DNA of 50,873 nucleotides from the NCBI GenBank assembly GCA_021738065.1, contig JAIPCT010000016.1, positions 1 to 50,873 of the forward strand. The letters run 5' to 3'. The notes beneath the pieces are model-generated. The model saw only the letters and a program-made list of their open reading frames with translations. It was not told where the DNA came from and searched no databases. Position numbers and translations under genes: made by a program. Shown piece after piece: positions 34,884-38,879 of the stretch. The number at the start of each line of letters is the position of its first letter. The first letter of the stretch is position 1. This stretch comes from Burkholderiaceae bacterium. GTDB taxonomy: Bacteria > Pseudomonadota > Gammaproteobacteria > Burkholderiales > Rhodocyclaceae.

Positions 34884-35597
34884 ATGTCCGGGTCTCTCTG
34901 GCTGCTGCCCGTTGCCCTTGGCGAAACGCCCTGGCAGCAATACCTGCCGGCCGCCACTCGCGACGCCGCCTGCCGCCTGACCCATTTTGTCGCTGAAAAT
35001 GCCAAATCGGCCCGTGCCGAGCTCAAGCGCATCGCCCATCCGACTCCCCTGCGCGAGCTTGCAATCGAGCAGTTGCCCAAAAGCCCCAGCGTGGCCGATA
35101 TCGAGCGCCTGCTGGCGCCGTTGCACTCCGGACACGACCTGGGCCTGATGTCGGAAGCCGGCTGTCCGGCAGTGGCCGATCCCGGCGCCTTGCTGGTGCG
35201 GCGCGCGCATGAACTGGATCTCGTCGTCAGGCCGCTGGTCGGACCTTCTTCGCTGCTGCTTGCCTTGATGGCCTCAGGCCTCGATGGCCAGCGTTTCGCC
35301 TTTCACGGCTATCTGCCTGCACGCGAGCCTGAGCGCAGCCGCCGCATCGTGGAATTGGAGAAAGAATCCGCCCGCGAGCGGCAGACCCAGCTCTTTATCG
35401 AAACGCCTTACCGAAATCCGGCGCTGCTCGATGCGCTGCTCCTGACCTGCCGACCCGAGACCCGGCTTTGCCTTGCAAGGGATTTGACATCGGGCACGGA
35501 GAGTATCCGCACCCGCAGTGTCGCCCAATGGAAGTCCACACAGTTGCCCAATCTGGACAAGCACCCCACGGTTTTTCTGCTTCTGGCCGACCGGTAG
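34884..35597 (+). CDS. RsmI-like SAM-dependent methyltransferase (tetrapyrrole methylase fold)
   Basis: 237-residue protein of COG0313. LWLLPVALGE opens the protein, LGLMSEAGCPAVADPGALLVRRAH is the SAM-binding region of the family, and PLVGPSSLLLALMASGLDGQRFAFHGYLP follows the RsmI pattern. It is shorter than RsmI (about 280) and looks like the common second paralogue found beside maf/yceD. The RNA or other target is unknown. It converges with the selD-type gene at 35649. Confidence 0.87.
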   Translation: MSGSLWLLPVALGETPWQQYLPAATRDAACRLTHFVAENAKSARAELKRIAHPTPLRELAIEQLPKSPSVADIERLLAPLHSGHDLGLMSEAGCPAVADPGALLVRRAHELDLVVRPLVGPSSLLLALMASGLDGQRFAFHGYLPAREPERSRRIVELEKESARERQTQLFIETPYRNPALLDALLLTCRPETRLCLARDLTSGTESIRTRSVAQWKSTQLPNLDKHPTVFLLLADR

Positions 35598-35648
35598 TCA
35601 GGCCGAAAACGCCAAAGTCAGTTCCGGGCGATACCGCCGACGAGCGCC

Positions 35649-36713
35649 TCAGGCACTCACGCTCACCTTGGCTGACCCGGATTCCAGGCGTCCAACCACT
35701 GCAGCCTGCGCAAAACCATCCGCACGAAACACCGCCAGTACGTCATCGACTGCCGCCGGATCACATGCCACCAACAAGCCTCCGCTGGTTTGCGGATCGG
35801 TCAGCAAAGCCCGTTGCATGGTCGTGATGGCGGCATCAAGCACGACATCCTCTCCGTAGGCCATCCAGTTGCGCGCCGAAGCGCCGGTGATATAGCCTGC
35901 GGTCGCGAGCGTTTCGACATTCTCCAGCAAGGGTATCTGCCTCATGTCGAGCGAAGCCGCTAGTCCTGCCCCGCGACATACCTCCAGCAAATGCCCCAAC
36001 AAGCCGAAACCGGTGATATCGGTCAGGGCATGCACCGTCTCGAGTTGCGCCAGGCTTTTGCCCGGAGTATTGAGCTTGGTGGTGCTGGCTATCATGACGT
36101 CATAGCCGGCGGCATCCAGCGCCCCCTTCTTCAGCGCGGCCGACAGGACACCGACACCCAAGGGTTTGCCCAGGATCAGCACGTCCCCCGAACGCGCGCC
36201 GGCGTTGGTTTTCACCTTGTCGGGATGCACCAGTCCCATCACCACCAGACCGTAGATCGGCTCCACCGAGTCGATGGTATGGCCTCCGGCTATCGGGATG
36301 CCGGCAGCGGCGCAGATGCTTTCGCCGCCTTCGAGTATTTTGCCGATGATGTCCAGCGGCAACTTGTCGATCGGCATGCCGACCAGGGCCAGCGCCATGA
36401 TCGGGGTGCCGCCCATGGCGTACACGTCGCTGATGGCGTTGGTCGCGGCAATGCGGCCGAAGTCGAAGGGATCGTCGACGATGGGCATGAAAAAATCCGT
36501 GGTGGCTATCAGCGCCTGCTCGTCATTGAGGCGATACACGGCGGCATCGTCGCTGGTCGCGATGCCGACCATCAGTTCCTTGGGCACCGGCCAGCCGCGC
36601 GCGCTGCCCAGAATCTCGGACAGCACGCCGGGAGCGATCTTGCAGCCGCAACCGCCGCCATGGCTGAATGACGTAAGCCGAACGGGCTTGGAGGTTGACT
36701 TGCTTGAGTTCAT
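35649..36713 (-). CDS. selD: Selenide, water dikinase (SelD), probable SenC of selenoneine synthesis
   Basis: 354-residue enzyme that makes selenophosphate from selenide and ATP. The N-terminal glycine-rich loop SHGGGCGCKIAPG carries the catalytic Cys22 and Lys25; the codon is a normal cysteine codon, so this is not a selenocysteine form. ATTDFFMPIVDDPFDFGRIAA and GFGLLGHLLEVC follow as in all SelD proteins. ATG at 36711-36713 with AGGTG 9 bases upstream; it begins 8 bases after the glycosyltransferase stop. Next to senB and senA homologues it is best read as senC. It could also serve selenocysteine or tRNA selenation if those genes exist elsewhere. Confidence 0.94.
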   Translation of the reverse strand: MNSSKSTSKPVRLTSFSHGGGCGCKIAPGVLSEILGSARGWPVPKELMVGIATSDDAAVYRLNDEQALIATTDFFMPIVDDPFDFGRIAATNAISDVYAMGGTPIMALALVGMPIDKLPLDIIGKILEGGESICAAAGIPIAGGHTIDSVEPIYGLVVMGLVHPDKVKTNAGARSGDVLILGKPLGVGVLSAALKKGALDAAGYDVMIASTTKLNTPGKSLAQLETVHALTDITGFGLLGHLLEVCRGAGLAASLDMRQIPLLENVETLATAGYITGASARNWMAYGEDVVLDAAITTMQRALLTDPQTSGGLLVACDPAAVDDVLAVFRADGFAQAAVVGRLESGSAKVSVSA

Positions 36714-36721
36714 TGATTGAT

Positions 36722-37684
36722 TCACCTGATCATGTCTAGAAGACTGCAAACGCCAGAGCATTCACTTGCCGGAGAGAACAAGGATACCCGCTCGGCGCAG
36801 CGACCGGCCAAAGCCGCGTAGTAATCCGGATCACGCACCGCCGTCTGGATCAGTTTCGCCAGTGCCGCGGCATCGCCCACTGAAAACCAGCCGGGATAGT
36901 CGGCGCCGAGCATGCCACGATTGCCCGCGATGTTGCTGCCCAGCACCGGGACGCCGCTGGTGACGGCCTCGATCAGGACATTGGCGCCACCCTCCATCAG
37001 CGAAGGCAGCAGCAGCACTCGGCAACGCTTGATGCGCTGCCGAGTGGCTGCCTGAGGCAAGGCGCCCAGCCAATGATAGCGCTTGTCTCCATCGCCCAGC
37101 GCCGCCACTTTTGCCGCGAGATGGGTGTCGAGTGCCGCACCCACATGAAACAAACGTACCGGCAGATCAGGAGGCAGGAGCCGCAACGCACGCACGGCCG
37201 TCAGCGGGTCCTTTTCCGGCCGCTGATGCCCGACCAAGGCCAGATCGAAGTAACGAGTGCTGTGTCGGCCTGGTCGCAATGATCGCGCCGACTGATGTAT
37301 CACCACGGCTTTCGCCGCGTGCCCGGGCGTCAGTTCGAGTACGCCCTCCTGTTGCAGCAGTATCAAACGGTCGGCGAGTGCCAACGAGCGCTGCGCCTGC
37401 GCATCTACCCGAATATCGCGGTATAGATCGGTTCCCGTCAGAACCACCGCCAGCGGCCGCCCGGGATGGCGTGCCGCAAAGTCGGCAATTGAGGGGGCCG
37501 AACGACGCGCATGCAGCGCTATCATCATCCGGTCGTCGCCTCCGCTCCATTGGCACTCGATACGCACCCGGGCATGGAGTGCCAGACATTGCGCCCAGCG
37601 CCTGGCCGTATGCCAGTTGCCGTTGTTGGCACCGGCCAGTGCCGGGCTGATAATGACGACGGAGGGACGGGTCGAAATGGACAT
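36722..37684 (-). CDS. senB: Selenosugar synthase SenB (TIGR04348-type glycosyltransferase)
   Basis: 320-residue family-4-like glycosyltransferase. The N-terminus VVIISPALAGANNGNWHTARRW, the GTDLYRDI segment (residues 84-91) and the donor-site region EGGANVLIEAVTSGVPVLGS (231-250) match the family described as SenB, which joins selenophosphate to a UDP-sugar to form a 1-seleno-sugar. The start at 37682-37684 is the last Met that keeps the first beta strand, and it overlaps by 8 bases the opposite-strand start of the EgtB-like gene. Function assigned by family plus co-location with selD and senA; not tested here. Confidence 0.88.
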   Translation of the reverse strand: MSISTRPSVVIISPALAGANNGNWHTARRWAQCLALHARVRIECQWSGGDDRMMIALHARRSAPSIADFAARHPGRPLAVVLTGTDLYRDIRVDAQAQRSLALADRLILLQQEGVLELTPGHAAKAVVIHQSARSLRPGRHSTRYFDLALVGHQRPEKDPLTAVRALRLLPPDLPVRLFHVGAALDTHLAAKVAALGDGDKRYHWLGALPQAATRQRIKRCRVLLLPSLMEGGANVLIEAVTSGVPVLGSNIAGNRGMLGADYPGWFSVGDAAALAKLIQTAVRDPDYYAALAGRCAERVSLFSPASECSGVCSLLDMIR

Positions 37685-38879
37685 ACCGAATATTAGAACC
37701 GCTGACAAAACGCTGCTGGCCGAGGCAATGCAGGAAGCGCGCAACAACTCGATTCACCTGCTTGACGACCTTGCGGGCTGGAACGAGCGCACCAAAGCGG
37801 ATACTACACGGGCCTCCCACCCCTTACATGTCCCCTGCCTGGACATCATCAATCCGCCACTATGGGAACTGGGGCACGTTGCCTGGTTCACGGAGTACTG
37901 GTGCCGGCGCTACCAAGGCGAAAATTCGCCTCTCCGCGCGTCGCTCCTGAAGGATGCCGACCGCTGGTATGACTCGCGCAATGTCGCGCATGACAGTCGC
38001 TGGCAGCTCGACCTTCCCGATTGGACCGGCACCCGACGCTATCTCGAAAACACGCTCGCTGACGCCCTCGATTCGCTGCTGGAGCTTCCGGATACCGACG
38101 CCGCGCTTTACTTTCATCGGCTGGCCCTGCTGCACGAAGACATGCACGACGAGGCGTTTCGTTACACGCGACAAACCCTGTCCTGGCCGTCGACGGACGA
38201 GTTGTACGCCCTGCCACCGCTTGCCGATATCGAACTGGCCGGCGGCGAATTCCTGATGGGCTCCGCGCCCGCAAAACCGGGATTTGTCTTCGACAATGAA
38301 AAATGGGCGCATCCGCGACACGTTGAGCGCTTCGCCATTTCTGCCTCGCCGACAAAAAATTCGGAGTACCTCGCTTTCGTCGAGGCGGACGGCTATCAAG
38401 ACCGTCGATGGTGGTCAGACGCGGGCCGCGCGTGGCTCCTCGCCAGCGGCCAGACCATGCCCCGCTACTGGCGATGCGAGAACGGTCGCTGGCAGCAACG
38501 GCGCTTTGCCGACTGGATCGAACTGGCGCCTGATCAAGCCGTAATTCACCTTACGGCGCACGAGGCCGACGCCTGGTGTCGTTGGGCCGGCCGTCGCCTG
38601 CCGAGTGAGTCCGAGTGGGAGTTCGCCGCATTGCAGGCCGGCCCTTTCGATTGGGGCAGCCAGGTCTGGGAATGGACGGCCAGCGCGTTTGCACCCTATC
38701 CGGGGTTCAGCCCCGACCCCTACGCCGAATATGCCGCGCCGTTTTTCCACAGCCATCGCAGCGTGCGCGGCGGCTCCTTTGCCACCCGCGAACGCATGCG
38801 CAACCCGCGCTATCGCAACTACTACGAAGCGCATCGTGACGATATTTTCATTGGCTTTCGCAGCTGTAGGAACGATTGA
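37677..38879 (+). CDS. senA: Selenoneine synthase SenA (EgtB-like non-haem iron enzyme)
   Basis: 400-residue EgtB/FGE-fold enzyme expected to couple hercynine with a selenosugar, giving selenoneine. The N-terminal DinB-like part has GHVAWF (His67) and the iron triad motif HEDMHDE (His153, His157). The C-terminal formylglycine-enzyme-like domain runs from GGEFLMGSAPA through CRWAGRRLPSESEWEFAAL and VRGGSFATRERMRNPRYRN to IGFRSC. EgtB of ergothioneine synthesis is the alternative, but the neighbours SelD and SenB favour SenA. The ATG at 37677 is preferred; ATG at 37728 (preceded by GAGG) would remove 17 residues and the overlap with senB. Confidence 0.87.
   Translation: MDIPNIRTADKTLLAEAMQEARNNSIHLLDDLAGWNERTKADTTRASHPLHVPCLDIINPPLWELGHVAWFTEYWCRRYQGENSPLRASLLKDADRWYDSRNVAHDSRWQLDLPDWTGTRRYLENTLADALDSLLELPDTDAALYFHRLALLHEDMHDEAFRYTRQTLSWPSTDELYALPPLADIELAGGEFLMGSAPAKPGFVFDNEKWAHPRHVERFAISASPTKNSEYLAFVEADGYQDRRWWSDAGRAWLLASGQTMPRYWRCENGRWQQRRFADWIELAPDQAVIHLTAHEADAWCRWAGRRLPSESEWEFAALQAGPFDWGSQVWEWTASAFAPYPGFSPDPYAEYAAPFFHSHRSVRGGSFATRERMRNPRYRNYYEAHRDDIFIGFRSCRND

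Follow-up and report, generated by a model that had tools for sequence, protein, structure and literature searches.

A predicted selenoneine locus with a genomic source of hercynine in a Rhodocyclaceae draft genome

Contig JAIPCT010000016.1 of a Burkholderiaceae bacterium (family Rhodocyclaceae; assembly GCA_021738065.1), analyzed here as a single stretch of 50,873 nucleotides (the window), holds three adjoining genes, selD, senB, and senA, at positions 35649-38879. Together they very probably form a selenoneine locus of the known kind, for which the same genome would supply hercynine through its own EgtD, encoded beside an EgtB. A sequence-only reading of the window had identified this set as senA, senB, and senC (selD), and all three proteins scored above curated NCBI family cutoffs: SenA with 498.9 against NF041186 (equivalog cutoff, 420), SenB with 390.6 against TIGR04348 (equivalog cutoff, 300), and SelD with 434.2 against TIGR00476 (cutoff, 125). 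The list of open reading frames (ORFs) bears out that no gene lies between the three, and the motifs quoted in that reading (GGGCGCK in SelD, EGGANVLIEA in SenB, and both HEDMHDE and GHVAWF in SenA) all occur in the ORF translations. Among solved structures, the top matches were 8ryz (V. paradoxus SenA; 3.7e-97) and 8k5i (4.2e-97) for SenA, 8fbx (2.1e-78) for SenB, and 3u0o (3.4e-97) for SelD. The locus is a mostly ordinary, well-supported example of a known system; among named records, those of Rhodocyclales and Sulfuritalea come closest to its lineage, and it adds a selenoneine locus in a lineage near Sulfuritalea.

The sen cluster (senA, senB, and senC) of Variovorax paradoxus DSM 30034 was reportedly described by Kayrouz et al. 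in 2022. The window encodes the same three protein families; its SenA groups with that of V. paradoxus, and the SenB catalytic residues are kept, with EGGANV in the window SenB where V. paradoxus has EGGAHV. A single selD in the genome and the overlapping head-to-head starts of senA and senB characterize the window, and V. paradoxus may share both. According to published accounts (PMC9814287, PMC10702425, PMC10903977), SelD (SenC) provides selenophosphate, SenB builds a selenosugar, SenA couples this to hercynine, and the selenoxide eliminates and is reduced to selenoneine. Every chemical step proposed here is extrapolated from V. paradoxus on the basis of shared protein families. SelD would convert selenide and adenosine triphosphate to selenophosphate, SenB would use selenophosphate and a uridine diphosphate-sugar to form a 1-selenosugar, and SenA, an iron enzyme, would couple the 1-selenosugar oxidatively to hercynine; breakdown of the selenoxide, followed by reduction, would yield selenoneine. 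By this route the organism would channel selenium into selenoneine.

The observation in the sequence-only reading that the window lacks egtD stands, as the only match in the genome at E ≤0.1 lies on contig 56. Its corollary, that hercynine must come from elsewhere or from outside, survives in its first half only: egtD and egtB are both on contig 56 of the same genome, and an outside supply need not be invoked. The draft genome (G000; 3,395,880 bases in 148 contigs, 87.57% complete) carries one egtD (372.7; cutoff, 290.9), followed directly by an egtB free of internal stops (560.8; cutoff, 360). As predicted from these genes, hercynine can be made by the organism's own genome, which closes the earlier gap, and this one EgtD probably feeds both the ergothioneine and the selenoneine branches. 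Directly before egtD on contig 56 lies a glutathione-disulfide-reductase-like ORF (L219:1998-3083), which scored 460.5 against a cutoff of 480 with part of the gene scored; its product could help in the final reduction or the recycling of the selenium or sulfur betaine.

The wider distribution of these genes was surveyed in 41 genomes, 25 of the same genus and 16 of the order (G and L numbers are our handles for genomes and loci). SenA exceeded its cutoff in 28 of the 41, and every one of these 28 has egtD. Four genomes have egtD without a SenA over the cutoff (G020, G031, G032, and G034); G020 is 70% complete with its senB close to a contig end, and the other three have EgtB. EgtB itself exceeded its cutoff in five of the 41 genomes and, within the genus, in the window genome only (1/25). 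SenA and EgtB were both over their cutoffs in two of the surveyed genomes (the window genome and G029) and also in four named-record loci (L055, L077, L081, and L084), so the combination is not unique. Because egtD directly precedes egtB and lies on a different contig from the sen genes, it could be argued that it serves EgtB alone and that hercynine for SenA is imported from outside. We consider this unlikely, since 22 of the 24 genus genomes without an EgtB over the cutoff keep egtD, and since egtD of the same type occurs in G001 and G015 with no egtB seen near it and in G003 beside a broken egtB, which fits an egtD serving SenA.

The identity of the iron enzyme was assessed by family models, phylogeny, and residues. 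Window SenA scored 81.5 against TIGR04373, the "EgtB-related enzyme signature" (cutoff, 71), compared with 24.8 for the EgtB of the same genome, and its match to the EgtB model TIGR03440 (228.6) was under the cutoff of 360. A quick maximum-likelihood tree, supported by the Shimodaira-Hasegawa-like approximate likelihood ratio test only, was built from 108 distinct rows (from 186 sequences passing 250 amino acids and 100 bits) plus four solved anchors. In it, window SenA shares a 71-row group (support, 99) with V. paradoxus SenA (8ryz), apart from a 10-row clade (100) of EgtBs to which C. thermophilum EgtB (6qki) and the genome's own EgtB belong; M. thermoresistibile EgtB (4x8b) formed a long branch of uncertain position. 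Fifteen alignment columns split SenA-type sequences (99 rows) from EgtBs (10 rows) at ≥90%, a count that is partly circular as the groups were drawn from the tree and that came from an alignment leaving out OvsA, M. thermoresistibile EgtB, and the OvsA-like row L185. The SenA-type letter was present in all 15 columns for window SenA, in 13 of the 14 that V. paradoxus SenA fills, and in 12 of 15 for OvsA; the genome's own EgtB had it in no column. The grouping with V. paradoxus SenA and the 15 columns uphold the earlier assignment of the EgtB-like protein to SenA rather than to the ergothioneine EgtB clade.

Hercynine, the EgtD product, is common to this route and the ergothioneine pathway, and SenA and EgtB are homologous. 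The EgtB model still gives SenA 228.6 bits, and several histidines are shared by the two groups, among them His67, His153, and His157 of window SenA, presumably its iron ligands by analogy with EgtB. Such likeness could suggest a second sulfoxide synthase for ergothioneine (or another sulfur compound), with senB and selD as incidental neighbors. This seems highly improbable, because the protein falls under the EgtB cutoff and outside the EgtB clade, is of EgtB type in none of the 15 columns, and coexists with a separate EgtB of 560.8 bits, and because senA adjoins senB in many other genera too. An ovoselenol-type or other selenium-histidine product is equally hard to credit: OvsA (8ux5), the selenium-using enzyme of the ovoselenol pathway, is a close relative from the same superfamily with the 12 SenA-type letters given above, but it falls with 26 other rows, mostly SenA-like too, in a third group (27 rows; support, 97) without window or V. 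paradoxus SenA, the sole methyltransferase-like neighbor seen is an RsmI-like ORF that also stands beside selD in G016 and G021, where sen genes are missing from that site, and egtD is present in all 28 SenA genomes. As a side observation, a separate SenA clade (L027, L031, L035, L044, and L054; 5 rows, support 100) is encoded immediately behind egtD, and the flanking DNA retrieved showed no senB; L031, L044, and L054, the three members scanned, are over the SenA cutoff.

The SenB assignment rests on the equivalog model score and on conserved residues. The residues taken as important come from published mutant and structural work (PMC10891094, PMC10702425). When 81 distinct SenBs (from 173 matches, filtered by length and score) were aligned with V. 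paradoxus SenB as the reference, N20, T23, H58, R155, K158, E231, and E239 were identical in all 81, among them the window protein; N20, T23, and E231 bind the sugar donor. At position 235, N occurs in 67 of these proteins, H in 12, Q in one, and T in one. As N is the commonest letter there, the EGGANV motif is ordinary in this set, and H235N was rejected as a sign of an unusual SenB. The published conservation of EGGAHV (PMC10891094) refers to homologues of >55% similarity.

The window selD is the only selD over the cutoff in its draft genome, and mnmH/selU, the transfer RNA (tRNA) selenouridine gene, is also present; SenB and the selenouridine-forming tRNA enzyme would therefore draw on one SelD. 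A search for selB at 1e-40 found none in this incomplete genome. In G021 and G016, which have neither SenA nor egtD, the RsmI-like gene, selD, EamA, and Pit stand in the same row with no senA, senB, or egtD beside selD, the senB of G016 lying elsewhere. The window selD thus looks like a housekeeping gene that sen genes have come to adjoin, or else the sen genes were lost in G016 and G021; in this genus senA and senB, often with egtD, would form a module around a selD that also occurs at the site without them.

Several observations count against reading the window as a selenoneine locus with its own hercynine supply. A SenB over the cutoff is no proof of selenoneine, as 20 of 118 such genomes have no SenA-like match. 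Window SenB has N where V. paradoxus has the sugar-touching H235, even if N is the commoner letter. With the genome a draft, a second selD or egtD could have been missed, and egtD and the sen genes lie on different contigs without a physical link here.

Table 1. Coordinates of the sen genes and associated features in the window
Feature	Position	Strand	Basis or remark
selD (selenophosphate synthase; "senC" role)	35649..36713	-	TIGR00476; 8 bp after senB stop, same strand
senB, selenosugar synthase, 320 amino acids	36722..37684	-	TIGR04348; 8fbx; ATG start at 37684
senA, selenoneine synthase, 400 amino acids	37677..38879	+	NF041186, TIGR04373, 8ryz/8k5i, tree, separating columns
senA/senB start-region overlap, head-to-head, 8 bp	37677..37684	.	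Start-codon table of clade loci
Sigma-70-like site for senA, TTGGCA-17-GATAAT, 10/12 (putative)	37626..37654	+	Inside senB coding sequence; consensus match only
GGAGGG, likely senA ribosome-binding site, 10 bases before ATG	37661..37666	+	Similar purine run in relatives; inference
Gap between RsmI-like gene and selD, 51 bp	35598..35648	.	egtD position in many genus relatives
RsmI-like ORF (methyltransferase-like)	34884-35597		Model matches under cutoffs

The coordinates of the locus are collected in Table 1 (bp, base pairs), in which senA diverges from the senB-selD pair. The listed senB ORF begins with TTG at 37747, but the TIGR04348 match begins at residue 30, so the ATG at 37684 is the likely start. 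For senA the most likely start is the ATG at 37677, picked from homology and the upstream GGAGGG, and for selD it is 36713. A search of the whole window with Rfam at the gathering score returned no matches. Start positions were tabulated for 87 loci, of which 61 had both starts assigned; starts were homology-anchored by a rule of our own that favors those close to the window's, and the co-directional L064 got no row. The two genes are divergent in 60 of the 61 loci and co-directional in one. Their starts overlap in 36 loci, lie 0 to 50 bp apart in 22, and are 53 and 79 bp apart in two, and in the clade of window SenA they overlap in all 20 loci, by 8 bp in 11 of them and by 2 bp in nine. Such an overlap leaves no intergenic DNA for promoters, and its conservation is a simple clue to joint control.

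We infer that senA may be expressed from a promoter inside senB. The candidate site TTGGCA-17-GATAAT is the better of two sigma-70-like sites in 2.5 kilobases (kb), where shuffled sequences gave a mean of 0.5, and within the clade 17 of 20 loci have the identical sequence at the same position, L137 differs by one letter, and L017 and L019 retain a degraded form. Of the Ile codons that the -10 element covers, the first is written ATT in 18 of 20 loci, whereas the rest of senB favors ATC (157 of 232 Ile codons). Synonymous change at the senB start was low (ratio, 0.61; 0.569 in a second run), the lowest of 260 stretches and not equaled in any of 20,000 shuffles; the start of senA itself showed no such reduction (p about 0.13). 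Among the eight flanking control genes with a result, AzlC (0.569) and Pit (0.575) were as low as the senB start, PlsX (0.675) and Maf (0.797) also reached p <0.05, and SelD, the RsmI-like gene, EamA, and AzlD were not low. Low synonymous change was consequently rejected as proof of an embedded senA promoter. As the rows are related to each other, some letters are dictated by the protein motif, and the synonymous test is not specific, the buried promoter is proposed here as a candidate. On the opposite side, 12 of the 13 relatives tested have, as the best-scoring -10 element in senA, an exact TATAAT facing senB at about codon 20; it has a weak -35 partner only and is not the best -10 in the window.

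Going by contig positions, 15 of the 25 genus genomes have egtD of the sen-linked type, either on the same contig as sen or in its neighborhood next to the RsmI-like gene (in G013, about 3 kb separate egtD from a selD). A V. paradoxus-like sen locus is found in four (G006, G008, G009, and G018), egtD lies on a contig other than that of sen in four (G000, G001, G003, and G015), and no egtD was found in two of the 25 (G016 and G021). In the four V. paradoxus-like loci (L220 in G008), a V. paradoxus-like SenA is accompanied, near senB, by a long ORF that includes a selD domain; three of them have egtD convergent to senA, and in G009 egtD sits at the end of another contig. Little DNA separates selD from the RsmI-like gene in the window genome and in G001, G003, and G015. 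A tree of flank genes (PlsX, Maf, RsmI-like, SelD, EamA, and Pit; 21 rows) resolved the window genome with G003 and G001 with G015 as two clades, each supported at 100/100. One single loss of the sen-linked egtD was rejected, with the four genomes as one clade giving p = 9e-8 in the approximately unbiased test. In a tree of EgtD (48 distinct rows, each with about 240 or more amino acids and 150 or more bits, from 96 matches), the unlinked egtDs of these four genomes group together (100/100), and 17 sen-linked egtDs group separately (100/100).

The simplest reading has an egtD from a different line taking the place of the sen-linked one in two lineages; it may have arrived by gene transfer or have been an old second copy that was retained, and the data fit either route. 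G003 has the same reductase-egtD order as the window genome and an intact egtD beside an egtB relic (L217:4045-4863) that has two in-frame stops and lacks an internal stretch (query residues about 282-411). As the G003 genome is a draft, the stops could partly be sequencing errors; the missing stretch is harder to explain in that way. Near the egtDs of G001 and G015, in the 9 to 9.5 kb fetched, only chance-level matches to egtB were seen. Tentatively, and with more doubt than confidence, we suggest that hercynine supply was swapped twice to an egtD of the kind found in the egtD-egtB pair, after which egtB was kept in the window genome, decayed in G003, and is absent in G001 and G015, as a sulfur-to-selenium series, possibly with a senA promoter buried in the senB start that locks the two genes head-to-head. 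Among the titles returned by open-literature searches, none concerned egtD replacement or the senA-senB start overlap, which is weak evidence of novelty. The genus offers a natural comparison among genomes with sen and its own egtD, genomes with sen, another egtD, and an intact, broken, or unseen egtB, and genomes without senA, and it allows one to ask when cells prefer the selenium over the sulfur form.

A wider set of 399 order-level genomes contained SenB over the cutoff in 118 and SenA in 88; the 20 SenB genomes counted as lacking a SenA-like match, at 1e-60, come from our reading of the lists, with the best candidates per genome scored. SenB genes without SenA hint at further uses of selenosugars. 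Together with G016, these genomes gave 21 SenA-less loci, in four of which the ORF picker left SenB unlabeled and in which gene names come from reading translations. Of the SenA-less senB genomes (L263-L281 and L215), about half have senB in a shared neighborhood with flagellar-motor-like, HDOD-like, and rRNA-methyltransferase-like genes. The idea that a common selenium gene accompanies SenA-less senB was rejected, with a SelD-like ORF near in three of the 21 loci (G067, G093, and G387). In G016, a genome of the same genus that is 99% complete, senB (L214:8070-9682; 421 bits) occurs without SenA, egtD, or EgtB. Near it lie genes for an HPP membrane protein and selB, along with selA and formate dehydrogenase genes recognized by reading translations. 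The G016 senB is followed by an S-adenosylmethionine-dependent methyltransferase gene whose product scored 60.7 against the NCBIfam TehB model (under the cutoff) and 48.6 against the Pfam TehB model (over the cutoff), and G016 perhaps makes a methylated selenosugar.

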